A stretch of DNA of 18,180 nucleotides from assembly GCA_023807065.1 (NCBI GenBank), contig JAJJLU010004125.1, positions 1 to 18,180 of the forward strand, written 5' to 3'. The number at the start of each line of letters is the position of its first letter. Position 1 is the first letter of the stretch. Both the position numbers and the translations under genes were made by a program. This document shows positions 43-18,180 of the stretch, one piece after another. Below the pieces are notes generated by a model. The model saw nothing but the letters and a program-made list of their open reading frames with translations. It ran no database searches and had not been told where the DNA came from. The stretch comes from Isotricha intestinalis (Eukaryota; Ciliophora; Litostomatea; Vestibuliferida; Isotrichidae).

Positions 43-1944
43 TCAACTAACATTTTTAAAAAATGAATCAATAGAGCTATAATAAGTATAACTTTTATTT
101 ATTAATGAGTTTATAAAAGATTGTTCAATATCTTTTGATTTTAATTTCATTCTTTTAACACCAAAATAATCATCTAATTCAATTGAGAATTTAATATTTT
201 TTTTTGAAGATAAACTAAATTCTAATAATTTTTGATTTTGATTAAATGAAATGATAATAATTCCATCTTTTTCAATATTTAAATGTTCATTAATATATTT
301 AAGATTCCTATTCATTATTATTAATATTATCTTACTCTCTATTCATTATTATTAATATTATCTTACTCTCTATTCATTATTATTAATATTATCTTACAAC
401 CTATTCATTATTATTAATATTATCTTACTCACTATTCATTATTATTAATATTATCTTACCCTCTATTCATTATTATTAATATTATCTTACCTCCTATTCA
501 TTATTATTAATATTATCTTACAATCTAAATTTTAATTTTTCTTTCTTTACAATCTTTTTTTATTTAATTCTTACTCACTTTTTTCATTTAAATTATAATT
601 ACAATCTTTTTATTATTAATTTTATATTACTCACTATACATTAAAATATTTTTACTCACTATTCATAATTAATATTAATTTTACTAACTATTCATTAATA
701 TTATTATAATTTACTAACTATTAATTTAAACTATTTGAAATAATACTCACTAATATATTTATTCATTTTAAATTACGTCCTAATTATATTTATTTTAATT
801 GATTTACTGACTATATAATTAAATCTATTATTTAACAAACTAAAAATTAATTTTATATATACTATCTATTTCAAAATATTTTTTAAATTTATATTACTCT
901 CTATTTTATTTTTAATTCTTATCTTACTCACTATTCTTTTTAATAAATTATATTACTGACTTTTATTAATTATTATCTTACCTTCTATTTAATTATCATA
1001 ATTTTTATCTTACTCCCTATTTTATTTTAATTATTTATATACCTTCTATTTAATTATAATATTTATTATCTTACCCACTATTTTATTTTTATTTTAATAT
1101 CTTACAATTCAATCTCAATAATTGATTCCTTTAAAAACATATTATAATCTTTAAAAAAATTAGTCATATATTCTAATTCTTTCCAAATATTACCTCCGCG
1201 TGAATTAAATTTAATATTATTAAATTGTAAAATATTTTTTGTATTAATTATTATATTTGGATTTAATTGTTGACTTTTATCTTTCATTTTATATGTTTCT
1301 AATATTTCATTTGCTAATTTAATTTCTAATAAATGTTTTTCTTTAAATTCTTTTAATTGTTTATTAATCATATTTTTCACTTTTTCAATTATTTTATTAC
1401 ATTTATTTTCTACTCTTTTAATCATTTCTTCCATATTTTTAATAATTTTTTCATATTCTTTTATTTCTTTATCTTCTAATAGCATATGATTAATTGGAAT
1501 TATATTATGTGATTTTGGTTCTTTACATAAAAAACAACATGATTTATTACAATCTTTACAATAATTAATTTCTCTATTATGTTTTAAACATTTAATATCT
1601 ATTTCATTAATTGATATTAAAATATGATCTTTATTATTCATATCATGTTTCATTTTACAATTTGAACAAATAAAAGAATTACATTCATTACAATATAATA
1701 ATTGTTGATTATTTTCACAATATTTACATTTTGAATTATCAATTGAAAAACTTTTACTTTTAATAAGATAATCTTCTAAATTTATTTCTCCTTTATGTCC
1801 ATTAATACATTCATATTTAATATAATCTTTATCTTTTTTTCTTATTAATTCAATTTGAGGAATATTAATACAATTTGGACATCTTGAAATATTCATTTCA
1901 GATAATGGAAATATAATTGAAGGTTCAGAGATTAAATCTGTCAT
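43..1944 (-). CDS. Double B-box zinc-finger protein with micro-exon array
   Basis: Proposed 393-residue protein in 28 exons: exon 1 is 1944-1106 (839 nt), then 26 exons of 3 nt, then a last exon 307-43 (265 nt, stop TGA). Exon 1 encodes a Cys/His knuckle (C22, C25, C46, H50), B-box 1 (C73, C76, C85, C88, C93, C96, H100, H107) and B-box 2 (C119, H122, C129, C132, C137, C140, H146, H153). A helical, probably coiled-coil stretch follows at about 155-215, as in TRIM-like proteins but with no RING. B-boxes usually mediate protein contacts; the partner and role here are unknown. Read continuously, the ORF stops at a TAA (1102-1104) that lies inside the GTAAG of the first mini-intron. The downstream ORF's own ATG (313-315) lies inside the last intron, so it is unlikely to be a real start. 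The start at 1944 is the first Met and begins the conserved region. Exon 1 is certain; the joining is inferred. Confidence 0.75.
308..521 (-). repeat. Seven identical 28-nt units at 31-nt period
   Basis: Seven perfect copies of one 28-nt element (minus strand GTAAGAT...AATGAATAG) lie at 308-335, 339-366, 370-397, 401-428, 432-459, 463-490 and 494-521. The triplets between them read, in gene order, GAG, AGG, TGA, GTT, AGA, AGA. The 196 repeat bases show no mismatch while the six triplets take five forms. The units look like the youngest part of the larger array; upstream copies (522-1105) share ends and spacing but differ in sequence and length. The perfect identity suggests recent amplification or homogenisation. 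Confidence 0.95.
308..1105 (-). other. Array of 27 mini-introns separated by 26 three-nt micro-exons
   Basis: Every base of this 798-nt stretch is accounted for by 27 GT...AG segments (21-32 nt) and 26 spacers of exactly 3 nt. Introns, in gene order: 1105-1078, 1074-1046, 1042-1017, 1013-985, 981-960, 956-931, 927-901, 897-866, 862-840, 836-811, 807-780, 776-750, 746-718, 714-688, 684-659, 655-634, 630-606, 602-578, 574-554, 550-525, 521-494, 490-463, 459-432, 428-401, 397-370, 366-339, 335-308. The 3-nt exons are the gaps between them, for example TGG at 1077-1075, AAG at 1045-1043, GGA at 1016-1014, GAC at 779-777, GAG at 493-491 and GTT at 400-398. The 5' site is GTA in 26 of 27 (GTT once, at 836). 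The 3' site is TAG in 23 and AAG in 4. All introns sit in phase 2. Joined, the triplets give 27 junction codons with no stop, beginning FGRESHEEYF and ending LLRGELEE. Both other phases contain a TGA. Spacers are about 31% G+C; intron interiors are far lower. Splicing itself is not observed. Confidence 0.8.
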
Positions 1945-2037: not shown

Positions 2038-4710
2038 TTATTGATTATTTAAAATAATAACACAAGGTAAAGGACAAGCAGATAAAAAAATTTTAGTATT
2101 TTCTTTAATATCTCCTATAAAAGAACTTAATAATTCATATTGTGGTAAATTATATTTATTTATATAACCATCAAGTGAAATAGAAGTAAATTTAATCTAT
2201 CATTAATATAAATATCAACAATTATTTTATAATGAACTCAAATAATTTGATATAATTCTTTATTTTTATAAATAAATAGAATTCCAGTATCTACTCCATA
2301 AATACTATAAATTATATTAGTTTCCCCTTTAAAATTATTTGAATTTGTATAATAAAATATATCTTTTTCAGTTATATCTTTTAAAGAATTAGAATCAGTT
2401 GATTTTCTTGAAAAAGATTGATTATTCTTTTGTTAATGCTTTTCTTGAAGAAAATCATTTATTTTTGAAATAGGATTAAATCAAATTTCAAATAATTTAT
2501 AAAAATTATGTATTTCATCTTTAGGAATTTTCCCTTTTAGTATTTTTTCATGAATTAAAGGATGATAACAATAAGGCATATAAATATTATATTTAATTTT
2601 CCTCAAATTTATTTTGATTTTTTTTGTAAAATATAAATCAAACTAATAATTAATATCTTTATTACATTTTTCTTCTAATAAATTTCTAAATTGACAAACA
2701 AATAGAATAGGATTATCTTTACAAGGAATAAGAACTTCATCAACAAAAACATCATCTTCATCTTTTAAATTTCTTTTTTTTTTAAAATAACAGCAGTAGC
2801 TTTTTCATTTTGTTGTTTATTTTTTTATAATTTTTCTAAATTTAATTTATTAATATTAATAAACATTTCAGGTAAAATAAAAAATTCAGAATAATTTCTC
2901 TTAAATCATTTTTTTGAGAAGTAACACTATCAAAAGTTTTATTTAAATTAATAAATAATCTTTCAAGAGCTGCAAAAGTATGAATTTCAATAGCAGTTAA
3001 AGTAAAAGGAAATAATCTTGTTAAATAATTAGAAACATAAGCTGGATTTGAAAAATGATTTCCAAAAACATATGGTATTTTTTCATAATCTAATTCAATA
3101 TTATCTATTTCTTTTTTGTTAAGTGTTAGAAATCAAATAATTTATCTTTAAATGTTTTTTCTGGTAAATTTAATTCTTCTACCATCATTTTATAAGAATA
3201 TATACAATTATTTTTTCTGTCTTTTCCTTTCTCAGTTAATTCCATTAATGCAACTGGAAGTTTAAAATCACGAATTTCTGGTTTTGTTATTAAATCTTCA
3301 TTTAATTCATATTTTGAAGAATACAAGTAAATATAGGATATTGTGTTATATCTCTTAATGCTCTATTTGAAAAAAATTTAACCAAATTATATATTCTAAA
3401 TTAGATATTTGTCCATTTATCCATTTTTTCTGATATTCTTCTAAATTTTTATTATTTATTTTACTATTAATATGATATTATCATTTTCAGTTTTAAATCT
3501 AAAGTAAAATGTTTTATTTATATTTGTAAATATTTCACAAGCTGTTTTATTAAAATAATATTCTCTTCTAAGTATTAGATATATATTTTATAATTTATTC
3601 TTTTAAAATATCCTTTTCCGCTTCTTGATGGTATTAAATTTCCATAACAAATCTTTTTATTTTTATCTAATTCATCATATTCAAAATCATTTAAATCATT
3701 TTCTGACTAAAAAATAGATTCAATAAATATTAAATTTTCGTTTTCAAAATAAAGATTTCCATTTATATGATTTGTTATAGTTATTAAACAACATTTTAAA
3801 TCATATTTTTTTTTGGAATTTTTTCTTCATTAATTGGAAAAGTATTTAAATCAATTAAATATGAACTATCTTCTCTAAATATTGATTTAAATTTATTAAT
3901 ATTGGGTTTGAATGAATTTATATCTATAATAGGTTTTAAAAATGGACAAACCATTTCTTTAGTTAAAAAATGACAAATTTTATATTTTACATCCTTCTTT
4001 TCATTATAAAATACTTTAGAATCGCAATATGAACTATTAAAAGAAAATAATTTTTTTTTTATTTTTAATTATCTTTTTCTATTTTCATAATAACTATAAT
4101 CATTATTTTCTTCTTTTTTATTTTTTAATAATTTTTTAGAGCCATACAAAAATTTGGATTTATATTTTCTAATATTGATATCATTTTTTCAATTTGAGCT
4201 TTATTATAATTTTCAACAAATAATAATAAAATACAAAAAAAATGAGTTTTTTCAGCTATTTAATTGAGTCATCTGATTTTTGTGAAAAAAAATTTAATAA
4301 AATTTCTTATAAATTTAATAATAGTTCATTCATTTCATTTCATTAAATATTTTTTATATAATTCTTCAAATATAGGTAGTAATATATTAATTCGACAAAT
4401 ACAAAGAATTTTTTTTTTTTCCTTTTTTTATATAAAATATTTAACATATTTAAATTAGATAATAAATCTTTTGAAGATAATTCATTTTTTCTTATTTTTT
4501 CACCTAAATATTGACAAATAAAATCTATTCGTTTTTTTGAATAATCTATTTTTCCTTCATATAAATCTAAATTATTAATTATATTTTCCTTATTTTTTTA
4601 TTTATATATATTTTTCAAGTAAATAATCAAAATCAAATTTTTCTAAATATTTTCCTAGCCTATTTTTTTAAAAGTGTGAGTATTTTATCGTCTTTCTTTA
4701 AATTTTCCAT
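2038..4710 (-). pseudogene. Decayed PH-BEACH-WD protein gene
   Basis: No long ORF remains, but three-frame reading recovers a continuous relic of about 890 codons from a possible start at 4710 (MENLKKDDK) to TAA at 2038-2040. About 3450-3900 resembles a PH-BEACH domain (NGNLYFENENLIFIE; LILRREYYFNKTACEIF). The BEACH domain follows: KKWINGQISNLEYIIWLN (about 3360-3450), then ALRDITQYPIF, then PYVFGNHFSNPAYVSNYLTR (about 3010-3080), then a FFILPEMF block. The tail (about 2050-2300, including SLDGYINKYNLPQYELL) looks WD-repeat-like. Intact BEACH proteins work in membrane and lysosome traffic. Lesions include TGA at 2238-2240 and 2481-2483, TAG at 2643-2645 and 3707-3709, and TAA at 2433-2435, 2825-2827 and 4069-4071. 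There are also about ten frameshifts, several in A or T runs (about 2775, 3372, 3815). The stops at 2238, 2481 and 2643 sit where Trp is expected. One frameshift near 2195 could alternatively be a 23-nt GT...AG intron, but introns cannot explain the stops at Trp positions. Confidence 0.85.
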
Positions 4711-13908: not shown

Positions 13909-16900
13909 ATGAATCTTATAAAATTTATTTTTCATTTTCTCCTATTTAAATCCATTTTATCTTGTAGAAGAACAGAAGAAGGAACAGAAGAGGAATGTCC
14001 AGAAAATTGTTTTAATGGAACATGTGATTCAGATTGTAAATGTTTATCATGTATAACAGGATTTCACGGAGATTATTGTGAAACACCGTGTTCTTCTTTA
14101 GATACAAATTGTTTAGAATGTACTCAAAATGGAGAATGTACAAAATGTAACTCAACTTATTATTTAAAAAATTATACATGTCATATTTGTAATGAACAAT
14201 GTCTTAATAAATCATGTGAAGATGAAACAGGTTATTGTTCACAATGTGAAGATGGGAAATATGGTAATTATTGTGAAGAAGAATGTTCTGGTGGATGTGT
14301 TGATGGGAAATGTAATAAAGAAGGTAATTGTACATGTAAGCCTAAATTTTATGGAGAAAAATGTAATAAAAATTGTTCTGATTCTTGTGTAGATTGCGAG
14401 CAAATAAGTGGTAATTGCACTGAATGTGTTGATAAAAAGAAATATGGACAATTATGTAATGAAATTTGTGATTTGAAATGTAATAATGGAGAATGCTATA
14501 TTAATGGAAGTTGTATTAGTTGTGCTGAAGGTTATTCTGGGGAAAAATGCTGTCCTGAAAATTGTGAAAATAATGATTGTGATGATAATAGTAATTGTTA
14601 TAATTGTAAAAATAATACTTTTTTTGGAAATACTTGTAAAGATAAATGTAATGAAAATTGTTTAGAAAGAAAATGTTTCAAAAATAATGGTAATTGTTTT
14701 AATTGTTCAATAGGATATTATGGTGAAAAATGTCTCAATCCTTGCCCACAAAATTGTTTTGAGCATGAATGTGATAAAGAAGGAAACTGTAAAAAATGTG
14801 AGGATGGATGGTATGATAAACAATGTAATCAAAGATGTGGGAATTGCAAAAATGGTACATGTGGAAATGAAGGGGAATGTGATTCTTGTCAAGAAACTTA
14901 TTATGGACCAAAATGCAACACAAAATGTCCAGAAAGTTGTTTGAATCAAACATGTGATCAAAATGGAACTTGTTTAGAATGTAATGAAACATTTTACGGT
15001 GAATTGTGTAATAAACAATGTAATATTAATTGTAAAGATGGGAAATGTAATAGAACAGGACAATGTTATGATTGTGAAGATGGTTTTTATGGAGAGGATT
15101 GTAGTATTGGATGTCCTCCAGGTTGTTTAAATTCAAAATGTTCTAGAGATTTAGGTGAATGTAATGGATGTACTAATAACACTCACTATGATACTGATTG
15201 TAGGTTAGTTTGTAATGAGAATTGTTTAGATAATAAATGTAATCAGAATGGCACTTGTTTGGGATGTGAAGATGATAAATATTATGGTAATATGTGTGAA
15301 AACACTTGTTTTGAGCATTGTTTAGATAATAAATGTAATCAGAATGGCACTTGTTTGGGATGTGAGAATGGTTACACAGGAGAAAATTGTACATTGAATT
15401 GTTCTTCTAATTGTTATGAAAATAGATGTTCACAAAATGGTACTTGTTATGAATGTGAAAAAGGATACACTGGATATGATTGTTCTTCTAATTGTTCTTC
15501 TAATTGCGATGATCAAGGATGTGAGCAAATTACAGGAAATTGTACAAATTGTAAAATTGGTTTCTATGGAGATAAATGTCTTTATGAATGTAAGAGTTGT
15601 GGTGATTTAGGATGTAATAGAAATGGAACATGTATTAATTGTCCTTTTTTGAAATATGGAGAATATTGTGAAGAAAATTGTTCTTCTTGTGGTGAACAAG
15701 GATGTAATATGAAAGGAGAATGTAACGATTGCCCTGAATCTATGTATGGTTTGTATTGCCAAAATGAATGTGGAGAATTTTGTATAAATAAGACTTGTGA
15801 TTTGATGACTGGTAATTGTGAATGTAGAGGAGGATACTTACCTAATTGTACAGAACAATGTCCTTCTAATTGTAAAAATGAAGTTTGTGATATTAATAAT
15901 GGAAGTTGTACTTTAGGATGCAATGAAGGTTTTTATGGTGATCGCTGTTCTAAACAATGTGGAACAAATTGTTTGAACGATCAATGTGAACAAAATGGGA
16001 AATGTAAAGGATGTAAAAAAGGATTTTATGGTGATTTTTGTACTAATGAATGTCCTACAAATTGCAATGAAAATGTATGTGATCAAAATGATGGACATTG
16101 TAATGAGTGTATAACTGGAAAATATGGGAATGATTGTTCTCTAGATTGTAAAGAAGGTTGTAACGTAACTGAATTTAATTGTGATCAACAAACAGCTTTT
16201 TGTCATTCATGTTACACTAAATTTTATGGAGATGATTGTGGAGAAAATTGTCCTTCTGAGTGTGAAAATGGATGTAGTAAAGACGGACAATTATGTAATA
16301 ATTGCACAGAAGGTTGGACAGGAACAGATTGTTCTCAGCGATGTCCTTCTAATTGCACTTCTAAAGGATGTAATCAAATTTCTCAACATTGTTTTGAATG
16401 TATAAAAGGATACTATGGAGATAAATGTGAAAAAGAATGTTCCACAAATTGCAAGTCTCAGTGTAATAAAACTAATGGAGAATGTTTTGAATGTATTAAT
16501 AATTATGGACCTTTTTGTGAAAATGAATGTCCGTTAAATTGTTTAGGTAGATGTGATAAAAAAACTGGAGAATGTCCTCAATGTAGACAAGGATTCTTTG
16601 GTAAAAATTGTTCAAATAATTGTAATGATGGTTGTGAAGGTAATACTTGTGATTTTGTTACTGGAAATTGTACTTGTAAAATTAATTATTTTAATGAGAA
16701 TTGCAAAGATGAATGTCCTCAAAATTGTGATAGAAATGTAAAAGGTAGAATATGTGATATTACAACTGGAAAATGTGAAAAATGTAGAATTGGATTTAGT
16801 GGTGATTTCTGCACAGAGCCATGTCCTAACAACTGTTTAAATCCTTCAGAAAATTGTGTTAGGGAGACAGGAGAATGTAAAGAGTGTGTTTTAGGTTTTT

Positions 16901-18180
16901 ATGGTAATTATTGCAATCATACCTGTTCTGAAGGGTGTGTAAAAACAGAAAATTGTAAACATGATGATGGAAAGTGTGATAACTGTTTAGATAATTATTA
17001 TGGAGAATATTGTGAAAATAAATGTCCAAATAATTGTGATAAGAATGTTCAAAATGAATTAATTTGTGACAAAAGTGGAAAATGTACTAAATGTTTATCT
17101 AATTATTATGGAAATAATTGTTCACTAAAATGTCCTGGTCATTGTGACTCAAAATGTAGTCAAGAAAATGGAACTTGTTTAGAGCAATGTGAAGGGAAAC
17201 AATATTATGGAGAAAAATGTGAAACTCCATGTGATGACAATTGTAAAGATAGAAAATGCTCTAAGCAAGATGGTACATGTATTGGATGTAAAGACGGTTA
17301 TTATGGTAACAAATGCCAGATTGAGTGTGAAAAAGGATGTGAGACTAATTTTTGTGAACAAACTTATGGTACATGTGAATGTAAAGAAGGTTTTTATGGA
17401 GAGAAATGTAATTTAAATTGTTCTATATATTGTCTTAAAGGTTGTAATCAAGAATCCGGATCATGTAATGGATGTGTACCACATAAAAAAGGAACTAAAT
17501 GTGAAGAAGATTGTCCTATTCAATGTAAAAATAATAATTGTTCACAAGAAGGAGAATGTATTGAAGGTTGTAGTTCAAGTTATTTTGGAAATAATTGTCA
17601 AAACATATGTTCTAATTGTAAAAATGAAACATGCGATGATAATGGAATTTGTCTATATGGATGTAAAGATCAATATTATTCTGAAGATTGTTCTAAAAAA
17701 TGTGATTCAAATTGTGAAGGACAAAAATGTGACTATATCACAGGAAAATGTGAAAAATGTATAGAAGGTAAATTCGGAGATTTCTGTTTATCAAACTGTT
17801 CAGCTAATTGTGAGGGAGGATGTGAGCAAAATGGAAATTGTATAAATTGTAAACCAAAATACTATGGATTACAATGTGATACAAAATGTTCAGGTGATTG
17901 CAATTCAGAGGAATGTGACAGAGAAGGAAATTGTTTTTCTTGTATAGATGGGAAATTTGGAGATAAATGTGAGTATGATTGCTTATTGTATGAAAAATGT
18001 AAAAAGTGTGAGCAAAAAAGTGGAAAATGTTTTATATGTGTAAAACATTCATACGGCGAACATTGTGAATCATCATGTGATAATTGTTTGTTAGAAGGAA
18101 ATAATAATTGTGATATTATTACTGGAGATTGTACTACTTGTGTTAATAATACTTTCTTTGGAAGTGGTTGTAAAGAAAAA
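13909..18180 (+). CDS. Giant secreted/surface EGF-like cysteine-rich protein (3' partial)
   Basis: The frame is open for 1424 codons from ATG 13909 to the window edge, with no stop or intron. A signal peptide is evident at residues 1-19 (MNLIKFIFHFLLFKSILSC). The rest is about 40 tandem units of ~30-37 residues. Each follows roughly C-P-x-N-C, x4-C, x5-G-x-C-x2-C, x4-[YF]-[YF]-G-x2-C, an EGF/laminin-EGF-like or MEGF-like pattern. CxxC motifs occur in almost every unit, and cysteines are about one residue in five to six. Trp is almost absent. Such ectodomains occur on adhesins, variant surface proteins and, in Entamoeba, on transmembrane kinases. No membrane segment or kinase has been reached, so membrane anchoring and the intracellular part are unknown. 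Each neighbouring unit differs enough to exclude assembly collapse, except one recent duplication near 15221-15365. Confidence 0.93.
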   Translation, partial: MNLIKFIFHFLLFKSILSCRRTEEGTEEECPENCFNGTCDSDCKCLSCITGFHGDYCETPCSSLDTNCLECTQNGECTKCNSTYYLKNYTCHICNEQCLNKSCEDETGYCSQCEDGKYGNYCEEECSGGCVDGKCNKEGNCTCKPKFYGEKCNKNCSDSCVDCEQISGNCTECVDKKKYGQLCNEICDLKCNNGECYINGSCISCAEGYSGEKCCPENCENNDCDDNSNCYNCKNNTFFGNTCKDKCNENCLERKCFKNNGNCFNCSIGYYGEKCLNPCPQNCFEHECDKEGNCKKCEDGWYDKQCNQRCGNCKNGTCGNEGECDSCQETYYGPKCNTKCPESCLNQTCDQNGTCLECNETFYGELCNKQCNINCKDGKCNRTGQCYDCEDGFYGEDCSIGCPPGCLNSKCSRDLGECNGCTNNTHYDTDCRLVCNENCLDNKCNQNGTCLGCEDDKYYGNMCENTCFEHCLDNKCNQNGTCLGCENGYTGENCTLNCSSNCYENRCSQNGTCYECEKGYTGYDCSSNCSSNCDDQGCEQITGNCTNCKIGFYGDKCLYECKSCGDLGCNRNGTCINCPFLKYGEYCEENCSSCGEQGCNMKGECNDCPESMYGLYCQNECGEFCINKTCDLMTGNCECRGGYLPNCTEQCPSNCKNEVCDINNGSCTLGCNEGFYGDRCSKQCGTNCLNDQCEQNGKCKGCKKGFYGDFCTNECPTNCNENVCDQNDGHCNECITGKYGNDCSLDCKEGCNVTEFNCDQQTAFCHSCYTKFYGDDCGENCPSECENGCSKDGQLCNNCTEGWTGTDCSQRCPSNCTSKGCNQISQHCFECIKGYYGDKCEKECSTNCKSQCNKTNGECFECINNYGPFCENECPLNCLGRCDKKTGECPQCRQGFFGKNCSNNCNDGCEGNTCDFVTGNCTCKINYFNENCKDECPQNCDRNVKGRICDITTGKCEKCRIGFSGDFCTEPCPNNCLNPSENCVRETGECKECVLGFYGNYCNHTCSEGCVKTENCKHDDGKCDNCLDNYYGEYCENKCPNNCDKNVQNELICDKSGKCTKCLSNYYGNNCSLKCPGHCDSKCSQENGTCLEQCEGKQYYGEKCETPCDDNCKDRKCSKQDGTCIGCKDGYYGNKCQIECEKGCETNFCEQTYGTCECKEGFYGEKCNLNCSIYCLKGCNQESGSCNGCVPHKKGTKCEEDCPIQCKNNNCSQEGECIEGCSSSYFGNNCQNICSNCKNETCDDNGICLYGCKDQYYSEDCSKKCDSNCEGQKCDYITGKCEKCIEGKFGDFCLSNCSANCEGGCEQNGNCINCKPKYYGLQCDTKCSGDCNSEECDREGNCFSCIDGKFGDKCEYDCLLYEKCKKCEQKSGKCFICVKHSYGEHCESSCDNCLLEGNNNCDIITGDCTTCVNNTFFGSGCKEK
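15221..15365 (+). repeat. Recent in-frame duplication of one EGF-like unit
   Basis: Two 49-bp stretches, 15221-15269 and 15317-15365, are identical and lie 96 bp (32 codons) apart within the EGF-like gene. They encode the same CLDNKCNQNGTCLGC core. Other units share only the cysteine spacing, so this pair reflects a recent unit duplication or gene conversion. Confidence 0.9.

Follow-up and report, generated by a model that had tools for sequence, protein, structure and literature searches.

Models of splicing assume that an exon must offer enough space to be recognised and that the spliceosomes of adjacent introns must keep clear of one another. The nearest known counterpart of the locus described here would be the micro-exon genes of Schistosoma. 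In these genes, very short exons follow one another in large number, and most have a length divisible by three; the exons are mostly 15 bp long (6-81 according to the main text, 3-81 according to the abstract), the introns measure 0.1-5 kb, and 10-20 exons are present (PMC10526429). Ultra-short introns are described for ciliates, with about 25 bp in Paramecium and Nyctotherus and a median of 15 bp in Stentor (PMC5014332, PMC10946202). Among animals, an exon of 3 bp is reported for homothorax of Drosophila (PMC7392893) and one of 4 bp for MPC1 (PMC9929638). The introner elements of the alveolate Amoebophrya are repeated introns that spread, use non-GT donors and carry inverted and direct repeats (PMC7789003). 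These statements come from excerpts of the papers named. The literature consulted, mainly open-access and in the form of listings, abstracts and passages, contains no description of tandem arrays of 3-nt exons.

The window, i.e. the whole stretch of 18,180 nt from Isotricha intestinalis that was analysed, carries on its minus strand the part of a B-box protein gene that is laid out in Table 1. Its first exon ends at position 1106 with the TT of a split Phe codon. The 798 bases that follow were parsed with intron lengths of 15-40 nt permitted and spacers of 1-9 nt tried. With 3-nt spacers, exactly one complete parse of 1105..308(-) exists, consisting of 27 introns and 26 triplets; with spacers of 1, 2 or 4-9 nt there is none. 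The 3-nt register claimed in the original prediction for 26 of 26 spacers is thus the sole parse, and the longest 3-spaced GT-AG chain reached in 2,000 dinucleotide shuffles was 4 (mean 1.98) compared with the 27 observed. A chance origin of the register is ruled out by these shuffles and by the genome-wide pattern controls given below. The intron interiors had also been said to vary; the introns measure 21-32 nt, and the last seven (521-308) are identical 28-mers. The latter are part of a tandem repeat of period 31 spanning 307-521, and this section of the array is a recent tandem array. The six triplets separating the seven identical introns (GAG, AGG, TGA, GTT, AGA and AGA) are of five kinds. 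The array is very probably a series of one-codon exons between ultra-short introns of the ciliate type, with spliceosomal removal of the introns and growth of such arrays by copying of intron+codon blocks.

Table 1. Features of the window gene, in the order in which they are read on the minus strand.
Feature	Positions	Strand	Length, content or basis
First exon	1106..1944	(-)	839 nt; Pfam zf-B_box (E 6.7e-07) and downstream part
Micro-exon array: 27 GT..AG introns of 21-32 nt, 26 exons of 3 nt	308..1105	(-)	unique parse
Micro-exon 1, TGG	1075..1077	(-)	unique parse
Micro-exon 2, AAG	1043..1045	(-)	unique parse
Micro-exon 3, GGA	1014..1016	(-)	unique parse
Micro-exon 4, AAG	982..984	(-)	unique parse
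Micro-exon 5, TCA	957..959	(-)	unique parse
Micro-exon 6, TGA	928..930	(-)	unique parse
Micro-exon 7, AGA	898..900	(-)	unique parse
Micro-exon 8, ATA	863..865	(-)	unique parse
Micro-exon 9, TTT	837..839	(-)	unique parse
Micro-exon 10, TCA	808..810	(-)	unique parse
Micro-exon 11, GAC	777..779	(-)	unique parse
Micro-exon 12, TGA	747..749	(-)	unique parse
Micro-exon 13, TTA	715..717	(-)	unique parse
Micro-exon 14, TTA	685..687	(-)	unique parse
Micro-exon 15, TGA	656..658	(-)	unique parse
Micro-exon 16, TGA	631..633	(-)	unique parse
Micro-exon 17, ATT	603..605	(-)	unique parse
Micro-exon 18, TGA	575..577	(-)	unique parse
Micro-exon 19, ATT	551..553	(-)	unique parse
Micro-exon 20, ATT	522..524	(-)	unique parse
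Seven identical 28-nt introns, GTAAGATAATATTAATAATAATGAATAG	308..521	(-)	7 exact copies
Micro-exon 21, GAG	491..493	(-)	unique parse
Micro-exon 22, AGG	460..462	(-)	unique parse
Micro-exon 23, TGA	429..431	(-)	unique parse
Micro-exon 24, GTT	398..400	(-)	unique parse
Micro-exon 25, AGA	367..369	(-)	unique parse
Micro-exon 26, AGA	336..338	(-)	unique parse
Last exon, conserved C-terminal domain and stop codon	43..307	(-)	alignment with C570, C72 and C519

When the window triplets are joined, the required frame is free of stops and connects the two open reading frames at 1106 and 307, as had been predicted; the other two phases contain 6 and 2 stops. The required frame stayed stop-free in 693 of 10,000 shuffles of triplet order and in 124 of 10,000 sets of random triplets from intron interiors. 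The expectation that the triplets are richer in G+C was borne out, with 31% in the triplets (78 nt) versus 4% in the intron interiors (477 nt). The codon-usage score of the required frame is 31.6 versus a mean of 21.2 in shuffled order, and 0.96% of 20,000 shuffled orders reached the value of the window. Coding evidence from the window alone is good but moderate; it is strong when the other loci are added. In an unspliced reading, a stop lies directly after the first exon (TTG TAA), and 38, 52 and 60 stops are spread across the array in the three frames. The joined peptide of the window array has no recognisable domain, and omission of all 26 micro-exons would likewise preserve the frame. Elsewhere in the window, positions 2040-3000 (-) look by eye like a decayed coding region, with protein-like pieces, stops and frame changes, and a large open frame with teneurin-like EGF repeats at 13909-18180 (+) runs past the contig end.

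Arrays are present genome-wide, beyond the window. In the 57.3 Mb assembly, a pattern of three AG-NNN-GTAA junctions at short-intron spacing gave 296+204 matches (500 in total), and its reversed control 0+1. The same three-unit pattern with 4-nt spacers gave 0+0 matches, and its reversed control 2+0. The 100 places listed among the matches to the three-unit pattern are spread over 17 contigs. For the comparison of spacers, 59 of 69 loci were used (10 were dropped, most as duplicates); chains of at least five with spacer 3 number 82 in these 59 loci, overlapping loci being counted repeatedly, and no chains of that size with spacers of 1, 2 or 4-12 nt were found in them.

A gene model with free exon length, applied to seven arrays, assigned exactly 3 nt to 332 of 348 internal exons; five shuffles per array yielded 68, 67 and 60 exons of 1, 2 and 3 nt, respectively, and a long tail. 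The pool of 21 arrays on 19 contigs contains 726 introns and 705 internal exons, of which 661 are exactly 3 nt long, a proportion that is raised by the fact that the pooled loci were mostly chosen by the 3-nt pattern, with spans bounded by 3-nt chains. Another 18 internal exons measure 6, 9 or 12 nt. C506 (L088), which is without a chain of five, was excluded from the pool. C1452 was fetched for its B-box rather than for an array, and all 25 of its internal array exons are 3 nt long. The longest run, in C826, comprises up to 64 consecutive micro-exons. The gene model also inserts introns, probably spurious, into long exons, including both long exons of the window gene and the first exon of each of C18, C148 and C1452. 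Exon boundaries outside the arrays are unreliable in the model when it is started at ATG; in C570, started in this way, no more than 21 of the 28 internal exons come out at 3 nt. Stretches of C453, C231 and C1460 remain as long exons.

Arrays or copies of their unit are located within about 1-2 kb of a contig end on C570 (L009), C72 (L012), C1460, C1705, C538, C515, C1306, C1364 and C1974 as well as in the window (308-1105); the arrays of C2, C94 and C148 are contig-internal. Two array contigs, C570 and C72, are capped by CCCCAAT telomere repeats, a repeat also reported, according to excerpts of the publications, for Entodinium caudatum, Balantidium ctenopharyngodoni and Muniziella cunhai (PMC6211341, PMC10978948, PMC11316547). 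The rRNA of the assembly is eukaryotic (SSU match of 1642 nt), and its SSU sequence seems to be of ciliate affinity; with the telomere repeat, a trichostome ciliate is the probable source of the genome. Tubulin genes form head-to-head pairs on C1462, C1640 and C1974, the last of which also carries array units at 24-82.

In the B-box paralogs C1561, C570, C72 and C519, the window gene included, the array starts at E[IV]xF with the Phe codon split TT|T (4/4). C570 and the window gene are 60% identical over exon 1 and 54% identical over 84 residues of the last exon. The arrays of C570, C72 and C519 end before a C-terminal domain that can be aligned with that of the window gene. The linker between these conserved flanks is unlike among the window gene, C570, C72 and C519; the linkers of C570 and C519 are uncertain in part, and that of C570 was partly assembled by hand. 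The C570 linker contains three repeats of TTA TTT GAA, and copies of one intron recur at intervals of about 91 nt; what has been duplicated here is a block that comprises three intron+codon units. B-box proteins form a large family, with 116 six-frame matches in the genome. Among 28 B-box loci (L012-L039), 3-nt-spaced chains of at least 7 are present in two (L012 and L039).

In the protein database, relatives were found for exon 1 only (P0001-P0004). P0001 and P0004 end at the would-be start of the first intron, with Leu in place of the spliced Phe, and P0003 ends earlier. P0002, from a public contig, continues for eight residues past the splice site in a manner that fits the first intron of the window; judged from P0002, this intron may be conserved. 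All four look like genomic reads and are no test of splicing. Close relatives of exon 1 were absent from prokaryote species genomes and viral contigs.

The joined triplets of other loci decode to parts of a common domain with two cysteine knuckles. Its N-terminal motif, W[EG]L[RK]CxxC, was obtained from joined triplets in 8 of 19 contigs (C18, C148, C1452, C231, C453, C281, C826 and C1460), with a weaker form in C21. The motif CPxC was obtained in C18, C21, C148, C231 (second array), C281, C826, C1349 and C1705, so that one or both motifs are present in 11 of the 19 contigs. Both are absent from the arrays of the window, C570, C72, C519, C2, C94, C275 and C398. The domain reads KWELKCTNCQHQFWKGEFEP...ICKDEDPCPKCG in C281, LWELRCMDCNYIFYKGEEIP...ICKDDKPCPNCR in C18, KWELRCTKCGYQYYNGEEEP...ICDDDDKCPKCG in C826 and EWELRCKKCYYQFWKGKYKP...ICNDKEPCPICR in C148, where it is located downstream of a kinase and a B-box (Pfam). 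One stretch of the joined-codon peptide of C281 would read WELKCTNCQHQFWK; the model of this gene has 79 aa and 63 introns, and 60 of its exons measure 3 nt, one 1 nt and one 6 nt. A 1-nt exon completes the Arg/Lys codon preceding the first Cys in C18, C21, C148, C1452, C826 and C1460, its base being A in five of these genes and G in one. Between genes, the middle of the domain is very variable in length and sequence.

Neither the six-frame genome, where an empty result is not proof of absence, nor a search of 5.8 billion proteins yielded an uninterrupted relative of the cysteine domain, which is therefore visible only through the micro-exon model. Pfam matches to the domain were to zinc ribbons only and were all below threshold, and a 71-aa tail decoded from one array had no six-frame match in its own genome. 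The C2b array lies downstream of a trypsin-like domain (Trypsin_2, 27.2 bits, just under the cut-off of 27.6). Read by eye, the C94 array likewise follows a trypsin-like domain, and the C275 array appears as a charged, coiled-coil-like stretch.

Of the 55 pairs formed by 11 loci, 15 show similarity at E<=0.001 (best 2e-7), compared with 0 of 55 in shuffled codon order and 1 and 0 of 55 in the two other phases. Triplets taken from the introns as controls gave 14 and 12 of 55 pairs at +9 and +12, with E down to 4e-20, and no pairs at +6 and +15. The strongest of these control pairs (4e-20) exceeds the best exon pair (2e-7); the control pairs are likely due to near-identical introns that translate into repetitive peptides. 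GT-only chains, which were found without any coding condition, contain a stop-free phase in 46 of 46 cases with at least 6 introns (32.4 expected from shuffled bases) and in all 21 chains of 12 or more triplets (10.1 expected). Within a gene, the chains have a stop-free phase in common; C519 is the exception, as its two chains need different phases. At the sequence level, the original reading of micro-exons under intron definition is thus supported, other loci decoding a common cysteine domain.

It is unlikely, but conceivable, that the triplets are exons with variable inclusion that make many isoforms, a form of the micro-exon reading whose probability overlaps with the latter. All units being multiples of three, the frame would be kept under any skipping, and the middle of the cysteine domain differs greatly in length and sequence between genes. 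Alternative splicing is also discussed for the schistosome genes in the excerpts used (PMC10526429). However, the conserved cysteine codons are themselves carried by exons of 3 nt, and this speaks for faithful inclusion, at least at those positions.

A 28-mer intron, GTAAKATAATATTATTAATTAATTATAG, has 182 near-copies in the genome at <=2 mismatches, often 31, 62 or 93 nt apart; its reversed control has none, and the unit is absent from the viral contigs. It is improbable that the window array amounts to a single large intron (or a few) bearing a minisatellite, with an mRNA that joins 1106 to 307. In favour of this view, a direct join likewise preserves the frame, the final seven window units are identical 28-mers with period 31, and 3-spaced GT-AG chains as long as 15 arose from repeats alone in 80 prokaryote control contigs taken from at least 119 matched stretches. 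Nevertheless, the chains did not exceed 5 in 75 of the 80 control contigs, and the two longest control chains listed are made nearly of a single triplet (GGA 12/14, GAT 6/6), whereas the window spacers differ while the GT..AG boundaries hold. Within the C826 array, similarity is 89% among the 35 introns of 28 nt and 37% among the triplets, for which composition alone would give 33%, so the spacer does not repeat, unlike in a minisatellite. Joined triplets of other genes, moreover, encode a common domain. As a general explanation, a minisatellite in a single intron was rejected in view of variable triplets, constant boundaries and a domain common to several loci.

The micro-exon reading includes growth by copying, of which C826 (L081) provides an example: a block of 12 codons with their introns is duplicated there, reading DSWVKDLGDEER and then DSWVKDLGDEEL, and block duplication is the plain reading. 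In small numbers, 11 of the 12 codons have no differences and their introns 1-3 each; the twelfth codon differs at all three places. Copying of intron+codon units explains the strict 3-nt spacing more easily than random insertion would. If units were copied, the cysteine domain must have originated in array form or been rebuilt in that form.

It is very improbable that the arrays have no product and represent pseudogenes or parts of genes in decay. The arrays of C570 and C453 parse badly in places, and many arrays lie near contig ends; against this stand the stop-free phase kept by all 46 GT-only chains, the recurrence of the cysteine pattern and, in small numbers, the duplicated C826 block with its unchanged codons and differing introns.

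The introns of the pool, to be removed by the spliceosome under the preferred micro-exon reading, are 20-37 nt long (the model allowed 17-38). GT is the donor of 27 of 27 window introns and of 671 of 726 pool introns (92%); the acceptor AG was required by the pool gene model. The 55 modelled introns with other donors include 23 AT-AG introns, mostly beginning with ATAAGA, and 11 each with GA and TT. AAGA at +3 to +6 is present in 87% of the 23 AT-AG introns versus 13% of GT introns, which suggests that a better downstream match offsets the lost G. Among the 671 GT introns, 25% do not end in TAG. That the segments are not introns but IES-like germline DNA eliminated in macronuclear development, or are skipped by ribosomes, is scarcely credible: the host genome is probably a ciliate's and short Paramecium IESs resemble the array segments in length, but the boundaries are GT..AG and not TA..TA, the TAG end is missing from the quarter of GT introns just mentioned, the arrays of C570 and C72 lie on CCCCAAT-capped contigs and so probably in somatic DNA, and 92% of the segments start with GT although ribosome skipping would not depend on ends that look like splice sites; IES-like elimination was rejected on the basis of the boundaries and the telomere-bearing contigs.

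U6 is encoded twice in the genome, which also encodes U1, with ACTTACCTG close to the 5' end, and PRP8, whose PROCN domain (E 2e-228) lies within a 2473-aa open frame. An unknown excision process, which the original prediction had offered as an alternative, is therefore not needed. Ordinary genes seem to be intron-poor in a small sample (PRP8 and tubulin), 11 of 17 tubulin matches being located in open frames of 427-513 aa.

An ordinary spliceosome is predicted to remove all 27 window introns, after which the triplets would be read as 26 codons. Under intron definition the introns would be the units recognised, exon length would be irrelevant, and each removal would join a codon to its neighbour. 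Arrays would lengthen in frame through duplication of intron+codon units or blocks, and near-identical 28-nt introns would spread or become homogenised among the units. Since each unit adds 3 nt, duplication, loss or skipping would never shift the frame. The variable stretch between the conserved knuckles could thereby change freely in length and sequence, and in the window family the linker between the two conserved parts could likewise vary freely. A further step is possible but rather doubtful: every codon of the domain would be its own exon, self-copying 28-nt introns would add codons singly, and the arrays would act as a frame-safe engine for diversifying a loop, possibly with codon-by-codon alternative splicing.

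If the micro-exon reading is true, splicing operates on exons far smaller and denser than textbook models allow, and dozens of consecutive one-codon exons represent a limiting case for such models. Only pure intron definition with ordered removal would solve it, and the arrays would open that model to direct testing. Genes of this kind escape six-frame searches and probably standard annotation, and their proteins may be missed in other AT-rich protist genomes. With near-identical introns between unlike codons, the arrays also offer a system for studying intron multiplication.

The ultra-short introns of ciliates resemble those of the arrays in length; tandem one-codon exons are not mentioned in the excerpts on Paramecium, Nyctotherus and Stentor. 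The animal micro-exons of 3-4 nt, as far as the excerpts describe them, indicate that spliceosomes can include exons this small, but they are single and not arranged in arrays. Near-identical intron copies, of which the 182 of one 28-mer are an example, are shared with introner elements; unlike the introners of Amoebophrya as described in the passages used, the copies found here are 3 nt apart in arrays. The long run of short exons in multiples of three is shared with the micro-exon genes of Schistosoma, which differ in that nearly all exons of the present arrays are 3 nt long, the introns measure 20-37 nt, and up to 64 such exons are consecutive.
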